Assembly (NCBI GenBank): GCA_016866775.1
Contig: VGLJ01000003.1
Coordinates: forward strand, 1-64,000
Source: Candidatus Rokuibacteriota bacterium
Lineage (GTDB): Bacteria > Methylomirabilota > Methylomirabilia > Rokubacteriales > CSP1-6
DNA length: 64,000 nucleotides
Direction: 5' to 3'
Shown here: positions 11,095-19,064 of the stretch, piece after piece
How the letters are laid out: every line of letters begins with the position of its first letter
Position numbering within the stretch: position 1 is the stretch's first letter
The notes under the pieces: generated by a model
What the model saw: only the letters and a program-made list of their open reading frames with translations
The model's database searches: none
Told to the model about the DNA's origin: nothing
Made by a program: the position numbers and the translations under genes

Positions 11095-11690
11095 TCAGAC
11101 GCCGCCGAAGAGCTTCGCGTAAACGAACGCCGCGAGCTTGGCCGCGCCGCGCGCCGAGTAGTGGACCCCCGTATCGCCGAACAGGACCATCGGCCCTCCG
11201 GGCTCGCCTTCGAGAATGGGCGCCGGGTCGATGACGACGGCCCCCATCTCAGCGGTGGTCGCCGCGCCGAGCCGCGAGTAGGAGGTCAGGTACGTGTTCT
11301 TGACACGAGGTCGCGCTTGAACCACATGGCCTGGTCGATGTTGCGCGTGAACGTTCCGTAGCGCCCGGCGCGAACCTCCCCCTCCAGCGACCGGCCATCC
11401 TCGGCGAGCAGCCTCGCGTGGTTGTGTCAGAAGGTTGTCGATCCGCCGTACGCGATGATTCGGAGCGACCCGGGAGTTTCGCCGGTGGTGTTGTAGCCGT
11501 ACGGCTTCTGGATGCCGCCCAGCTCCGGATCGCTGCGCCAGATGCCGTACGTCTTGCCGGGCGCGCCGAAGCGCCACCAGAAGTAGAGACGCGCGGGCGC
11601 CTCGATGCCGACCGCGGCCAGGAGGGGGGACAGCGCCAGTACCACGAGGGCCGCGACGAACAGCGCGCGCTTCCGCGGCGACAGGCTCAC
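11095..11690 (-). pseudogene. Decayed SGNH/GDSL-like hydrolase gene
   Basis: The 5' part (from GTG 11690) encodes a membrane-anchored N-terminus and reads to YGGSTTF, the block I-like motif of SGNH hydrolases, then hits TGA at 11427. The same frame continues to encode a sensible sequence (ARLLAEDGRSLEGEV, then FTRNIDQAMWFKRDLV) and then must shift frame to read NTYLTSYSRLGAATTAEMG and the catalytic Asp-His block GDTGVHYSARGAAKLAAFV. The central blocks are missing. At least one stop, one frameshift and one internal deletion are therefore present. Genes of this type often modify polysaccharides, and damaged exopolysaccharide genes lie 4 kb away. Confidence 0.75.
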
Positions 11691-12369: not shown

Positions 12370-13740
12370 TCACGCCGCCCGCCGGAGCCGCACGGCCGTG
12401 AAGGCGTCGGTGCCGTGGCGGTCCGGACGGCAGCGCAGCACCCCGTCGTCGTCGAGCGGGAGCGGAAACGAGGCGGGCGGATCGACGACGAAGTCGGGCC
12501 GCCTCTCCCGGAGCGCGGCCACCACCGCCTCGTTCTCCTCGGGCTCGGGAGAGCACGTCGCGTAGACGAGCCGGCCGCCGGGCTTCACCATCGTCGCCGC
12601 AGCGGCGAGGATCGCTCGCTGGCGCGCGGCGCTGGCCGTGAGATCCGCCGCGTCGCGACGCCACTTCACCTCGGGGTTCCGGCGCAGCACGCCGAGGTTC
12701 GAGCACGGAGCGTCGACGAGCACGGCGTCACACGTGTTGGCGACGCTCGGGGCGAGGGCCTCGACCACACCTTCGCGCGTCTCGACGATCGTCACGCCGA
12801 GGCGCGCGGCCGCCTCGGCGACACGCGCGAGGCGCGCGGGCTGCGGGTCGAAGGCCAGGATCCGGCCACGGTTCTCCATGAGCTGCGCCAGGTGCGTCGT
12901 CTTCGTGCCCGGCGCCGCGCAGACGTCGGCGACGACGTCACCTGGACGCGCCTCGAGCAGCCGCGCGACGAGCATGGATGCTTCGTCCTGCACCGCGAAC
13001 GCACCATCCGCGAATGCGCGCCACGCCGCGGGTGCGCCGCCGTGCTCCACGACGAGGCCTTCCGCCGCGTGACTCGTCGGCGTCCCCGTCAGGCCTTCTT
13101 CGCGCGCGAGCCGTTCGGCGAGCGCCTCGCGCGTCACGCGGAGCGTGTTCGCGCGAATCGTCATCGGCGGCCGCTCGTTCATCGCGCGCATGAGCGCGGT
13201 GGCTTCGTCGCCCCCGTAGCGCTGCACCCAGCGTGTCGCGAGCCAGGTGGGAAACGACAGACGCACCGCCAGCGCCTCGAGGGGATCGTCCGGCGCGCGC
13301 GGCTCCCGCTCCCGCGGCCCGCGGCGGGTGAACGAGCGCAGCACGGCGTTGACGAACTCCGGTGTGCCTTGCTTGCCCCGGCCTTTCGCCAGCGAGACCG
13401 CGTCGCTGACCGCGGCGAAGGGCGGAATGCGATCGAGGAAGACGAGCTGATAGGCGGTCATCCGCACGAGCACGAGGACGCGCGTGTCGAGCGTCTCGAG
13501 CGCGCGACGCGAGTGCGGCGCCAGGATCCAGTCGAGGTAGCGCTGCCAGCGCAGGGTGCCGTAGACCAGCTCGGTCGCCAGCGCGGCGTCGCGCGGCGTC
13601 AGTCGGCGCGCGGTGATCTCGGCCTCGAGCGCGAGATCGGCGAACGCGTCGTCGACCGCGACGCGCTGGAGCGTGCGCGCGGCGACGACGCGCGCGGGCG
13701 ACGGCGGGTGCGCGGGGCGGACGCGCGCGGGCTCGCTCAT
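12370..13740 (-). CDS. rsmB: 16S rRNA (cytosine-C5)-methyltransferase RsmB (Sun/Fmu)
   Basis: The 456-residue protein has an N-terminal NusB-like helical domain (about 15-150) and a C-terminal SAM methyltransferase domain with DVCAAPGTKTTHLAQL, VDAPCSNLGVLRRNPEVKW and YATCSPEPEENE, giving the two catalytic cysteines of m5C enzymes. It modifies C967 of 16S rRNA in E. coli. ATG at 13740 overlaps the fmt stop by 4 bases, an arrangement seen in many bacteria. Confidence 0.95.
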   Translation of the reverse strand: MSEPARVRPAHPPSPARVVAARTLQRVAVDDAFADLALEAEITARRLTPRDAALATELVYGTLRWQRYLDWILAPHSRRALETLDTRVLVLVRMTAYQLVFLDRIPPFAAVSDAVSLAKGRGKQGTPEFVNAVLRSFTRRGPREREPRAPDDPLEALAVRLSFPTWLATRWVQRYGGDEATALMRAMNERPPMTIRANTLRVTREALAERLAREEGLTGTPTSHAAEGLVVEHGGAPAAWRAFADGAFAVQDEASMLVARLLEARPGDVVADVCAAPGTKTTHLAQLMENRGRILAFDPQPARLARVAEAAARLGVTIVETREGVVEALAPSVANTCDAVLVDAPCSNLGVLRRNPEVKWRRDAADLTASAARQRAILAAAATMVKPGGRLVYATCSPEPEENEAVVAALRERRPDFVVDPPASFPLPLDDDGVLRCRPDRHGTDAFTAVRLRRAA

Positions 13741-14660
13741 GCGGCCGCGAACCGTGCGCCGGGCTCGAGGCGCGCGCCGCGGAGATAGTCGTCCCAGGAG
13801 ACTTCGCGCCGATTTTCCGGCTGCACGACGAGCGGCACCACCGCCCCGCTCCCCGCGGCGATCGCGAGACTGTCGCCGTGGCGTACGGCCGTCCCCGGCG
13901 CCGCGGCCGGCGCATCGACCGCTCGCGCGCGCCAGATCGTGAGCTGGCGGCCTCGCGGCGCGCGCGTCGTCGCGCCGGGCCACGGATTGCACCCGCGCAC
14001 GACGTTCACGAGCGCGCGCGCGGGGTGTGTCCAGTCGAGGAGGCCGTCGGTCTTCTTGAGCCGCGGCGCGAGCGTGGCGTCTTCGTGCCGCTGCGGTGTC
14101 GGCACGAGGGCGTCGAGCCGTGCGAGCGTGTCGATCAGCACGTCGGCTCCGAGACGTGAGAGCCGTTCCGCGACGTCGCCGGCGGTCTCCTCGGGTCCGA
14201 TCGGCGTGCGCACCATCAGGAGCACGTCGCCGGTATCCATGCCGGGATCCATCTGGAACGTCGTGATCCCCGTCTCGGTCTCGCCGCGCATGATCGCCCA
14301 CGCGATCGGCGCGGCGCCGCGATAGCGCGGAAGGATCGACGCGTGGACGTTGATCGAGCCCCGCCGCGGCGCATCGAGCACCGGCTTCGGCAGGATCTGG
14401 CCGAACGCCACGACGACGGCGACATCGGCGCCGAGCGCGACGAGCCGTTCGGGCCACTCCGGATCGCGGAGGCGAGGCGGCTGCAGGACCGGGATCCCCG
14501 CCGCGAGCGCCCGTTCCTTCACCGGTGGCGGGGTCAGACGCTGGCCGCGGTGCGCGGGCCGGTCCGGCTGGGTGATCGCCGTCACCACCTCGTGATGCCG
14601 GAGGAGCGCATCGAGCGTCGGGAGAGCAAAGGCCGGCGTGCCGTAGAAGAGGACCCGCAT
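13737..14660 (-). CDS. fmt: Methionyl-tRNA formyltransferase
   Basis: Fmt formylates initiator Met-tRNA using 10-formyl-THF. The 307-residue protein begins MRVLFYGTPAFALPTL, has the folate site HASILPRYRGAAPIAW and the DTGDVLL motif, and a C-terminal OB-like domain (RGCNPWPGATT). ATG at 14660 is preceded by AGGAG at 8-base spacing. The partner def lies 4 kb away, separated by the exopolysaccharide genes, although def and fmt are often adjacent. Confidence 0.97.
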   Translation of the reverse strand: MRVLFYGTPAFALPTLDALLRHHEVVTAITQPDRPAHRGQRLTPPPVKERALAAGIPVLQPPRLRDPEWPERLVALGADVAVVVAFGQILPKPVLDAPRRGSINVHASILPRYRGAAPIAWAIMRGETETGITTFQMDPGMDTGDVLLMVRTPIGPEETAGDVAERLSRLGADVLIDTLARLDALVPTPQRHEDATLAPRLKKTDGLLDWTHPARALVNVVRGCNPWPGATTRAPRGRQLTIWRARAVDAPAAAPGTAVRHGDSLAIAAGSGAVVPLVVQPENRREVSWDDYLRGARLEPGARFAAA

Positions 14661-14844
14661 GGGCGCTCCTATCGTACGGCGCGCCGCACTGGGAAAAGCC
14701 TTCCGCTTACCCGGAACGAACTGCCTGCCCGGATCGGGGTGGTCGGCGATCAACCGCCCGGAATCGTTCGCGCGTCTGTGATCGCATGGCTGGAACGCCG
14801 CGTGCTGCCCTCACCGACGGTCGCACCGTTCTCCGGAGGAGATC

Positions 14845-15003
14845 ATGGTGACGTTGATGGTCGTGGGGGCCCTGGTGCTCGGCGGCTTCGCTGGTGCGCT
14901 TGCGTGTGGTCTCGGCCGTGTCGCGCGGGAGACCGACGAGGTGGAGCGCGCGGCGCGGGTGCGGCGAGAGGCGCTCCTGCGGCTGGCGGGTCCTCCCCGC
15001 TAG
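14845..15003 (+). CDS. Small single-pass membrane protein
   Basis: A 52-codon frame starts at ATG 14845 right after GGAGGAG, the clearest ribosome-binding site in this part of the window. The product has one hydrophobic segment (about residues 3-25, glycine-rich) and a charged C-terminal helix rich in Arg and Glu. No family is recognised. It stands alone between divergent fmt and the convergent sugar transferase gene; 14661-14844 shows no other feature. Confidence 0.55.
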   Translation: MVTLMVVGALVLGGFAGALACGLGRVARETDEVERAARVRREALLRLAGPPR

Positions 15004-15016
15004 ACTCGTCCGGGCG

Positions 15017-15661
15017 TCAGCGCGACGGAAACGTCGCGATCCTTCGCGCGCGTCGCAGACGCGACGGCTCGAAGTAGAGTCCCTCGCGCCTGAAGAGCAC
15101 CACGAATGCGCGGGCGAGGATCCGCAGATCCAGCCACAAGGACCAGTGATCCACGTACCAGACGTCGAGGCGGATCCGTTCGTCCCAGTCGAGCTGGTTG
15201 CGTCCGTGGATCCACGCCCATCCAGCCATGCCGGGGCGGACGTCGAATCGGCGACGGTCCGCGTCCGAGCAATGGGCCGCCTGCGCGGGCACCCAGGGCC
15301 GGGGGCCCACGACGCTCATCTCGCCGCGCAAGACGTTGATCACTTGCGGAATCTCGTCGAGCGTCCAGAGTCGGAGCACCCGGCCCACGCGCGTCACGCG
15401 CGGATCGGCCGCGGTGACGGTGAAGCCGCCGTCCATCTCCTCGGCGCCGCGCACCATCGTCCGGAACTTCAGACACCGGAAGCGCCGGCCGCCGCGTCCC
15501 ACCCGGGTCTGGCGGAAGAAGACCGGTCCGCCGTCGCCGAGCTTGATGGCGAGCGCGATGATTGCGATCAGCGGAGACAGCGCGTGGACGACTCCGCCTG
15601 CGACGACGACGTCGAACGCACGCTTCGTGGCGGCGGCAAGGCGGCCGGGCCGACTCGGCAT
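15017..15661 (-). CDS. Polyprenyl-phosphate sugar-1-phosphate transferase (WcaJ/PglC type)
   Basis: The enzyme starts glycan synthesis by moving a sugar-1-P from a UDP-sugar to undecaprenyl phosphate at the inner membrane. The 214-residue protein matches the small single-domain form: TKRAFDVVVAGG, a re-entrant hydrophobic segment, GGPVFFRQTRVGRGGRRF, LKFRTM, LDEIPQVINVLRGEMSVVGP and DVWYVDHWSLWLDL. ATG at 15661 shares the bases CATG with the oppositely oriented start of the truncated Wzz frame, and no ribosome-binding site is seen before it, so its upstream region has probably been replaced. Confidence 0.92.
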   Translation of the reverse strand: MPSRPGRLAAATKRAFDVVVAGGVVHALSPLIAIIALAIKLGDGGPVFFRQTRVGRGGRRFRCLKFRTMVRGAEEMDGGFTVTAADPRVTRVGRVLRLWTLDEIPQVINVLRGEMSVVGPRPWVPAQAAHCSDADRRRFDVRPGMAGWAWIHGRNQLDWDERIRLDVWYVDHWSLWLDLRILARAFVVLFRREGLYFEPSRLRRARRIATFPSR

Positions 15662-16271
15662 GGTCGCGGACAACGCGCTGATCAGCCACCTGAAGGCGCA
15701 GGCCTCGGAGCTCGAGGTCCAGAAGTCGAAGCTGCTCAAGACGTACAAGGGGCAGCATCCGGAGATCCAGAAGGTCGACGCGCAGATCGACCAGGTGCGC
15801 CAGCGGTTCGGGGAAGAGATCCAGACGATGATCCGGGCGCTGCAGACGGAGGCCAAGGTCGCGCGCGCCAAGGAAGAGACGCTGCTCAACAACGTCAATC
15901 AGCTGCGCCGCGAGGGTCAGGAGCTCAACGAGGAGGAGATCCAGTACTCGGTCCTCCAGCGCGACAGCGACTCGAACCAGCAGCTCTACGAGGCCGTGCT
16001 GAAGCGGCTCAAGGAGACCGGCGTCACCGGGGGCGTGGAGGCGAACAACGTCCGCGTCGTCGAAGAGGCCGTCATGCCGCGCGTGCCCGTCCGGCCCAGG
16101 CGCATGCAGAATCTCCTGATCAGCATCGTCGCGGGGCTCGTCGTCGGCGTGGGTGTCGCGCTCACCGTGGAGTACTTCGACACCACGCTGAAGACGCCGG
16201 ACCAGGTCGAAAGCCTCACCGGGCATCCGGTCATCGGCGTGATCCCCGTGTTCTCGGTGAAGCGGTCGTGA
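15660..16271 (+). pseudogene. 5'-truncated Wzz / polysaccharide co-polymerase gene
   Basis: The frame from ATG 15660 encodes the coiled-coil part (LKAQASELEVQKSKLLKTY, GQHPEIQKVDAQI) and the C-terminal GNVR-like end (NNVRVVEEAVMPRVPVRP) followed by the second transmembrane helix (about 155-175) of Wzz-type chain-length regulators. The first transmembrane helix and the N-terminal periplasmic domain are absent; upstream DNA is antisense to the sugar transferase. The 203-residue remnant could be translated, but lacks a ribosome-binding site. It overlaps the BY-kinase start by GTGA, the normal order for a Wzz-kinase pair. Confidence 0.82.
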
Positions 16272-16960
16272 CGCCGACGCCCCCCGCGAAGCCGGCGGCG
16301 AAAACGCGCGAGTCGGCGCGCCAGACGCTCGTCGCCGAAACCGATCCACGCTCGCCGGCCGCCGAAGCCTATCGCACGCTGCGCACGAACATTCGCTTCG
16401 CCGGCCTCGACACGCCGTGCCGCACGATCCTCGTCACGTCGGCGAGCCCGGGCGAGGGGAAGACGACGACCGTCGCCAACTTCGGCATCGCGGCGGCCCA
16501 GGCGGACGCGCGGGTCTGTCTCGTCGACTCCGACATGCGGCGCCCGTCGCTGCACCGGCTCTTCGGCGTGCCGAACACGCGCGGGCTCACGACGGCGCTC
16601 GTCGAAGGCGGCACGTTCGGCACCGTGGCGCAGCCCACCCACATCAAGAACCTCTCGGTCGTGACGAGCGGGCCGCTCCCGCCGAATCCGGCGGAGCTGG
16701 TCGGCTCGCACCGCATGCAGGAATGCCTCGACAGCGGCACCAAGGAGTTCGACCTGCGGCTGTTCGATTCGCCGCCGGTCGTCTCCGTGTCCGACGCGCT
16801 CGCGCTCTCCGCGCTCTGCGAGGGCGTGATCCTGGTGGTGCGGTCGGGCGCGATTCCCCAGCCCGTCATCCGCCGGACCGTCGATCACATCGAAGCGGTG
16901 AAGGGCCGGATCCTCGGGATCGTGCTCAACAGCGTCGACATGAAGCGCGACGGCATGTAA
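16268..16960 (+). CDS. BY-kinase / CpsD-CapB type tyrosine kinase, C-terminus truncated
   Basis: The 230-residue protein carries AEAYRTLRTNIRF, Walker A (SASPGEGKTTTVANF), Walker A' (CLVDSDMRRPSLHRLFG) and Walker B (LRLFDSPPV) of bacterial tyrosine kinases that control polysaccharide polymerisation with Wzz. Relatives end in a run of tyrosines after a KVDxxRDG-like segment; here the protein stops directly after DMKRDGM, with no tyrosine cluster. The next bases read in another frame into the end of an O-antigen-ligase domain, so the tail was probably removed by a deletion. Confidence 0.88.
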   Translation: MTPTPPAKPAAKTRESARQTLVAETDPRSPAAEAYRTLRTNIRFAGLDTPCRTILVTSASPGEGKTTTVANFGIAAAQADARVCLVDSDMRRPSLHRLFGVPNTRGLTTALVEGGTFGTVAQPTHIKNLSVVTSGPLPPNPAELVGSHRMQECLDSGTKEFDLRLFDSPPVVSVSDALALSALCEGVILVVRSGAIPQPVIRRTVDHIEAVKGRILGIVLNSVDMKRDGM

Positions 16961-16961
16961 C

Positions 16962-18546
16962 GCCCTCGTCGAGTTCCCGTTGCGTATTCCGGCGAACGGC
17001 TTCCTTGCCGCCACGCTCCTCGGGATCGCGACGGTCGCGCTGCACACCCGCGTCGCGCCGCACGACAGCACGCTCCTGTCCACCGAGCGCGTGTTCGCGC
17101 TCTCGCCGCGACGCGCGCGCGTGGCGCTCGGACTCGCGCTGCTCCTCTGCGTCGTCGTGATCGTGTCCGTCGCGCGCGGCGCGGTGGTCGATTGGCGCGT
17201 CGCGGCGTATCGGGCGGCGCCGACGCGGGAGCGCGCCGAGGCGATCGTCGCCGTCGACGGCGCTGATCCGCGCGGTCTCGCCGCGAGAGGCCTGGAGCGC
17301 CTCCGGGACAGTGCCGCGACGAGCCTTCGCCCCGACGGCGCTCCCCGGGCGCGCGTGCTCGTGGACGGCGCGATCGCCGACTTGCGAGCGGCACTGCGCG
17401 CGATGCCCGCGGAGCCCACGTACCATGAGCGTCTCGGCGCCGCCTACGCCGCCCGCGCGCTCTCGAGCGGCAGTCGCGACGATGCCGCCCGCGCGCTGGC
17501 CCATCATCGACGTGCGGTCGCCGCGTCCCCGGAGAACGCGACGCTCTACGTGTCGCTCTTTCGGTTCGCCCTGTCGCAGCGCCCGGCCTCTCTCGGCCTC
17601 GCGCTCGACGCCGCACGCGGCGGGATCGCACGCGATCCGGCGGTGCTCGATCGTGTGCTCGACGCGGTCGCGCCACTCGCGCTGAAGGACGGCGAGTGGA
17701 CGGCGCTCGTGCCGGCGGCGACAGCGCCGCGCCTGCGTCTCGCCCTCGCGCTCGAAACGCGCGCGCTGCTCCGCCCCGCGACTGCGGCGGCCAGGAGCGC
17801 GCTCGAGACGCCCGCCAACAGGGTCGAGTCCGCCGCCGCGCGCTGGCTGCTCGCGCGCCTGCTCATCCTGGAGGGGAACGCCGAGGACGCCGTGCAGGAG
17901 ATCTCGCTGGCGTTGCTCCAGGATGCCGCCAATCCGGAGCTCACCTTCACGTACGCCGAGGCGTTGCGAGCACGCGGGGATCCGCGCGCGCTCGACGCGT
18001 ATCGGGCGGCGGCGACCGCGGCGCCGCACGCTCCGCGCGACGCCTTCCTCGTCGCGGACGGCCCGCTCCGGGACGCGATTCGCGCGCGTGTCGGCGACTC
18101 ACCGCTGCGGTACCGGAAGGCCCTGGCCTGGTATCTCGGCGCGCGCGGCTATCACGACCAGGCGCTGCGCGAGTGGCGGGCGATCGTCGATGCCGACGGC
18201 AAGGACGCCCAGGCGCGCTTCGCCCTCGCCGCGGCGCTCGAGGCGAGGGGGCAGGCCGATCGCGCGCTGGAGGAATATCGTGAGGCGGTGGCGCTCGACG
18301 GGCGGCCCGCGTTTCGCGCGGCACCTCTGGGCGCGCGATCAGTACTTCCAGGCGATCACCGAATGGCGCGCGATCCGCGACCAGCGGCCGAAGGATCTCG
18401 ACGCGCGACTCTCGCTCGCCCGCGCGTTCGTGAAGGCGGGCGATCTCGACGCCGCCGTGCAGGAGTATCAGGCGGTGCTGCAGCTCGATCCCGGCAACAA
18501 GGCCGTGGCCGGCGAGCTGCTCGCCGCCCAGCGCGCGCGCCGCTAG
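16962..18546 (+). pseudogene. Remnant of O-antigen ligase/TPR fusion gene with frameshift
   Basis: The open frame begins with ALVEFPLRIPANG followed by a transmembrane helix, a pattern typical of the last part of an O-antigen ligase/polymerase domain, so most of the membrane domain is missing. A further helix (about residues 45-62 from TTG 16980) and a long TPR-like helical region follow (ALAWYLGARGYHDQALREW, AALEARGQADRALEEYREA). At 18312-18314 one T too many in GTTTCGC breaks the frame: the repeats resume one base later as FARHLWARDQYFQAITEW and end at TAG 18546 after QEYQAVLQLDPGNKA. It is therefore damaged at both points. Confidence 0.75.
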
Positions 18547-19064
18547 AGCGCGAGCGCCTTGTTCGACTCGGCGGGGAAGCCTTCCTTCCTGATGCGGCGC
18601 TTGATGCGGTCGCGCGTCATGGCGTCGAGGCGGTCGATGAACAGGATGCCGTCGAGGTGGTCCATCTCGTGCTGGAAGACACGCGCGGTGAGCCCGCGCG
18701 CGCGGATCGAGACCGGCTGACCGTCGAGGTCCTGTCCCTCGAGCCGCACCCACTCCGCGCGCGTCACCGGCGCGAAGATCCCGGGCAGCGACAGGCAGCC
18801 TTCCTCGGACGTGATCTCGCCGCCCTGCTCGGTGATGACCGGGTTGACGATGGCCCGCGCCTCACGGCCGTGCTCGTGGCCGACCACCATGAGGCGGAGC
18901 GAGATGCCGACCTGCGGCGCCGCGAGGCCGATGCCGACCTCGTCGTACATCGTCTCGATCATGTCCGCCACCATCCGGCGGACCTCAGGGGTGATCCCGG
19001 TCACCGGCGCCGCGCGCCGACGGAGGACAGGATCACCATACTTTCGCACCTTTAGAGCGGCCAT
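18543..19064 (-). CDS. def: Peptide deformylase
   Basis: Def removes the formyl group from nascent proteins. The 173-residue metalloenzyme has the three signature motifs: GIGLAAPQVG (44-53), EEGCLSLPG with metal ligand Cys90, and QHEMDHLDG with His132, Glu133 and His136. ATG at 19064 gives the usual MAALKVRKYGDPVLR start and overlaps the priA stop by 13 bases. The first step, formylation of the initiator tRNA, is encoded by fmt at 13.7 kb. Confidence 0.97.
   Translation of the reverse strand: MAALKVRKYGDPVLRRRAAPVTGITPEVRRMVADMIETMYDEVGIGLAAPQVGISLRLMVVGHEHGREARAIVNPVITEQGGEITSEEGCLSLPGIFAPVTRAEWVRLEGQDLDGQPVSIRARGLTARVFQHEMDHLDGILFIDRLDAMTRDRIKRRIRKEGFPAESNKALAL

Follow-up and report, generated by a model that had tools for sequence, protein, structure and literature searches.

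A tailless BY-kinase joined to a ligase/TPR remnant in a broken exopolysaccharide locus between def and fmt of a Candidatus Rokuibacteriota genome

We analyzed a 64,000-nucleotide stretch of a Candidatus Rokuibacteriota genome (GCA_016866775.1, contig VGLJ01000003.1), hereafter the window, in which a BY-kinase gene ends without its C-terminal tyrosine tail and runs straight into the middle of an O-antigen-ligase-like/TPR gene. This junction, reported in a preliminary description, is confirmed as truly present in the sequence. It lies in a broken locus of ordinary, known parts, and we think it rather probable that this patch is a decaying exopolysaccharide cluster, lost by deletion. The ancestral patch, at 14.7 to 18.5 kb, would have been an exopolysaccharide export/polymerisation cluster (an initiating sugar-phosphate transferase, PGT, followed by wzz, BY-kinase and ligase/TPR) inserted between def and fmt. 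One deletion, of about 1.4 kb on the scale of the relative G010, would have run from just past the RDG codon of the kinase to the middle of the ligase and created the reported junction. A second would have taken out the stretch between the PGT start and about residue 258 of wzz, with anything upstream (wza in G010), and a third, of net 14 nt, would have shifted the TPR frame. The features of the locus are as follows.

13737 to 14660, minus strand: fmt, methionyl-tRNA formyltransferase, the intact left neighbour (Pfam Formyl_trans_N/C; aligns in one piece with relatives)
15017 to 15661, minus strand: PGT, initiating sugar-phosphate transferase, 214 aa (Pfam Bac_transf over residues 13-190, profile 1-178 of 179)
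15661 to 15663, no strand: seam 1, where the PGT start meets wzz, which begins here at residue ~258 (VADN..) (alignment with seven wzz genes)
15663 to 16271, plus strand: C-terminal part of wzz, chain-length determinant, with GNVR domain and second membrane helix (Pfam GNVR only)
16268 to 16960, plus strand: BY-kinase without C-terminal tyrosine tail, ending ..RDGM stop (NCBIfam TIGR01007, motifs, comparison with nine tailed relatives)
16955 to 16958, no strand: seam 2, tailless kinase joined to mid-gene ligase (sequence, translations, alignments of relatives)
16959 to 18317, plus strand: C-terminal part of the O-antigen-ligase-like/TPR gene, without the Wzy_C membrane part (aligned to the G010 and G044 ligase/TPR proteins)
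18302 to 18324, no strand: lesion 3, net -14 nt with frame shift (22 nt against 36 nt in both G010 and G044)
18310 to 18546, plus strand: TPR tail in the shifted frame (Pfam TPR_16 over cut-off)
18543 to 19046, minus strand: def, peptide deformylase, the intact right neighbour (Pfam Pep_deformylase)

At seam 2, the sequence from 16940 reads ATGAAGCGCGACGGCATGTAACGCCCTCGTCGAGTTCCCG. The kinase frame ends in ..VLNSVDMKRDGM* with a TAA stop at 16958-16960, and the frame from 16959 reads NALVEFPLRIPANG, is extended as NALVEFPLRIPANGFLAATLLGIATVALHTR and opens the ligase motif ALVEFPLRIPANG. The stop codon and the motif share the bases at 16959-16960 in different frames, just as had been described. 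Homology of the kinase to its relatives runs to ..RDG (16954), with the stop one codon later, and homology of the ligase starts at 16959 (against G044, residue 458 of 1021) or 16968 (against G010). The only four bases clearly assignable to neither gene are ATGT, at 16955-16958. Since the kinase is 62-67% and the ligase/TPR remnant 37-41% identical to relatives, the latter over about 450 residues, the homologies that meet at the junction are not due to chance. The two genes had been called fused; this is correct for the DNA, but because the frames differ and a stop codon lies between them, the join is physical only and makes no fusion protein.

The kinase starts with GTG at 16268, overlapping the stop of the preceding wzz remnant, and passes NCBIfam TIGR01007 with 168.6 bits against a cut-off of 108.05. 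It carries ASPGEGKT, LVDSDMR, LFDSPP and EAYRTLR, and thus has the P-loop kinase core of BY-kinases, with Walker A, A' and B plus EX2RX2R. CapB structures match it over residues 12-224. A search of 57 family genomes, its own included, gave seven same-family orthologues (G010, G013, G067, G017, G015, G057 and G044), to which the 62-67% identity refers; a search of 95 phylum genomes, which again included the family, added two weaker kinases in G078 and G024 at 50-51% identity. All seven orthologues align up to and including RDG or REG and then carry a tail of 18-22 residues, 5-9 of them tyrosines, and the more distant kinases (L125 and L126, in G078 and G024) are tailed as well. The earlier observation that the kinase stops after DMKRDGM where relatives have a tyrosine run therefore holds for 9/9 relatives. 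With zero residues after RDGM and hence no tyrosine cluster, it is a truncated member of the BY-kinases rather than a complete one. Its branch is not unusually long, 0.30 compared with 0.25-0.37 for G010, G057 and G044, and does not exceed those of G044 and G057; the pairwise trees had few supported branches and served for branch lengths only.

According to PMC3795738, BY-kinases autophosphorylate at a C-terminal tyrosine cluster, and their activity requires the C-terminal segment of a Wzz/CapA partner. The window retains that Wzz segment without the tyrosine cluster of the kinase. An expressed kinase would retain the ATP site but would lack both C-terminal tyrosines of its own as phosphorylation targets and a full-length partner Wzz.

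The arrangement in relatives suggests how the tail and the ligase membrane part were lost together. As had been claimed, both are absent from the window; the layout of G010 has both. This relative (G010:C16 / JACQWC010000004.1, a Candidatus Rokuibacteriota MAG) has an intact wza-wzz-kinase-ligase/TPR cluster. It shares the order wzz-kinase-ligase/TPR with the window, and its kinase is 66% and its wzz part 72% identical; unlike in the window, the cluster lies off the def-fmt site, and def and fmt of G010 are adjacent on another contig (L075). The ligase/TPR gene of G010 starts directly behind the kinase. The same order is found in G024, where the kinase match ends at 1727 and the ligase match begins at 1834 in the locus. 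Elsewhere, the ligase of G044 is inverted and flanks wza-wzz-kinase at its opposite end; the stretch examined in G013, G067, G017 and G015 gave no ligase match, nor did the 3.7-kb locus of G078; and the G057 contig ends 126 nt past the kinase match, too early to show the following gene. The G010 order is thus seen in 2/9 relatives, and it is the sole order compatible with the window. In G010, 1396 nt separate the end of RDG from the residue to which the window's first ligase residue aligns. Because the ligase directly follows the kinase in G010 and G024, one deletion of about 1.4 kb accounts for both losses. This comparison with intact loci, which had been proposed as a check, supports the geometry of a single deletion, and of the earlier claim of one large deletion or assembly collapse, the first part is sufficient for this junction. 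The claim is thus supported in part. It was incomplete, as two further lesions accompany the junction, and it need not invoke that a large variable portion of the locus was lost: nothing variable lies between kinase and ligase in G010. We infer that the ancestor was arranged like G010.

Beyond the junction, the ligase remnant matches TPR profiles only. A Pfam search did not find Wzy_C (PF04932) in it; the G010 ligase/TPR protein has Wzy_C at residues 252-392, and the two PF04932 matches of the own genome are outside the window, on C41 and C58. Within the TPR part, the third lesion is flanked by VALDG and LWARDQ, near 18310. After the frame shift a further TPR stretch is 44-52% identical to relatives, and its stop overlaps that of def.

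At the remaining lesion, seam 1, wzz lacks its first ~257 residues; VADN is residue 258 of the G010 protein. In 7/7 relatives the N-terminal part of wzz is in one frame with the remainder. Across the point matching the seam, 5/7 read IFT-VADN and 1/7 IFT-VADS in one frame, and G057 differs locally. GNVR is present in the remnant (PF13807, 59.8 bits against a cut-off of 27.7), while the N-terminal Wzz domain with the first membrane helix (PF02706) was not found in the window; intact G010 wzz carries both Wzz and GNVR. From the wza start to the wzz point matching seam 1, G010 has 2001 nt. On the other side of the seam, the PGT, whose start codon sits at the seam, is probably full length or short of a few N-terminal residues. 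Its best family homologue, in G054, is likewise a short form with an open frame of 229 aa. A small open frame of 52 aa at 14845-15003 on the plus strand has a hydrophobic N-terminus and no Pfam match.

What remains could in principle be read as a reduced working module, in which the tailless kinase, an activating C-terminal part of Wzz translated from ATG 15660 and a membrane-anchored TPR protein still act together. The kinase motifs are retained, the kinase branch shows no acceleration, the wzz remnant keeps its second membrane helix and C-terminal segment, and the ATG at 15660 is in frame with VADN. However, the TPR frame is broken, the ligase frame offers neither ATG nor GTG as a start upstream of the TTG at 16980, inspection by eye revealed no clear ribosome-binding site before 15660 or 16980, and a tailless kinase occurs in 0/9 relatives. 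We therefore consider such a module very unlikely. Unlikelier still, in our judgment, is the specific form in which selection pared the patch down to signalling, discarding the polymer machinery and leaving a tailless BY-kinase activated by the C-half of Wzz and acting only on other substrates. The pathway encoded by the patch appears to be no longer functional.

The surroundings of the patch are in good order. It occupies positions 14660-18546 of the window and breaks up priA-def-fmt-rsmB, an order that is unbroken in the scored relatives. From the 56 genomes that matched def, the own one among them, the def loci of 29 relatives were taken, and one of these loci, L088, is short, lacks fmt and was left out of the score. 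In the remaining 28/28, def and fmt are adjacent with an intergenic gap of -2 to 267 nt, compared with 3885 nt in the window. By eye from the alignment table, we counted 17 flanking window genes that each align uninterrupted with proteins of relatives, which indicates that the damage is local and that the assembly is not generally damaged. The exception to the intact flanks is found between ffh and rpe (11095-11690, minus strand), where an SGNH/GDSL-like hydrolase lies in pieces. Its N part ends in ..IIAYGGSTTF stop and is followed by a middle fragment; the C part uses a different frame and weakly resembles the final third of Lipase_GDSL_2 (E 0.0053, which does not reach the cut-off). The N part had no relative in 56 other family genomes (1/57, own only).

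We then considered the assembly itself. Polysaccharide islands differ among strains, and a strain-variable island may have been collapsed, with fragments joined by the assembler or by gap closing while the cells still carry the whole cluster. The genome is a draft of 159 contigs, a 97.5%-complete MAG; two sharp joins lie within otherwise healthy reading frames; the contig of G057 likewise breaks at the point behind its kinase; and the SGNH-like pieces, at about 11.1-11.7 kb, make a second broken patch nearby. Against this, no exact repeat family of at least 14 nt spans both seams, among the families listed, and a shortfall of 14 nt is atypical of collapse. The 7-mer CGGCATG is present at both seams, at 15656-15662 and 16951-16957 in the same direction, but is too short for assembler joining and shows no enrichment, with 17 occurrences in the window where 14.5 are expected. 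We also dropped it as a recombination or target site, on that count and because it is in part native coding sequence at each seam; the repetition is probably coincidence. Base composition has no sharp break at the seams.

The missing parts were also looked for elsewhere in the assembly. With G010 wzz as query, the own genome returned the remnant (residues 255-458, 71% identical) and, for the N part, only another kind of Wzz-kinase protein, 24% identical, on C103; the single PF02706 match of the genome is on C103 as well. The G010 wza query matched only C103, at 25-30% identity, and the G010 ligase query found, beyond the remnant, matches confined to the TPR region (residue 837 onward) and not the membrane part. 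The intact cluster is thus absent from the assembly, and the missing parts are on no other contig. This favours true loss over collapse only weakly, because short contigs may be outside the bin. Taken together, collapse is a possible explanation that we hold to be somewhat improbable. The matches on C103 come from another polysaccharide locus of this genome, unlike the one in the window, at about 7.0-12.4 kb (G000:C103, L054); it encodes a Wzz-kinase protein in an 865-aa frame and has wza-like matches. This locus could render the window cluster dispensable.

A decaying cluster, the reading we prefer, fits the fact that a non-core patch was hit, that the core genes on either side are healthy and that the missing parts are absent. 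The genes of the patch are homologous to intact genes of relatives yet interrupted, as pseudogenes are. Three lesions lie within 2.7 kb, and since they are of different sizes, one just 14 nt, they agree with stepwise decay. We infer that they are real in the organism. The pieces between the breaks stay open, with a GC3 of 0.86-0.95, and the breaks are clean. As GC3, kinase motifs and branch length are all unremarkable, no long neutral drift is apparent; either the decay is recent or the joins come from assembly. If the deletions are real, the patch captures an exopolysaccharide cluster in the course of disappearing from its place between two translation genes. Otherwise, the joins mark a collapsed variable island in a nearly complete MAG. 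The locus also matters for annotation hygiene: automatic annotation would call the kinase, the Wzz-like protein and the TPR protein working exopolysaccharide genes.

Among the papers listed in literature searches, none dealt with this locus, and they provided background only. The erosion of bacterial pseudogenes by deletion is well described (PMC2916853), and that paper reports that most Salmonella pseudogenes have a single lesion. The patch resembles eroded bacterial pseudogenes in that sequence between conserved flanking genes would have been lost by deletion, and differs from those of Salmonella in having several lesions, above what is typical. Among BY-kinase systems, the locus is similar to CapA-CapB-type loci with separate Wzz and kinase: the kinase matches TIGR01007, and its gene comes after a GNVR/Wzz gene whose stop codon overlaps the kinase start. 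The solved relatives of the kinase are the CapA/CapB chimeras 4jmp, 3bfv and 2ved and the Wzc structure 3la6. Unlike in CapA-CapB-type loci, the kinase of the window has no C-terminal tyrosine cluster and its partner has no N-terminal Wzz domain.
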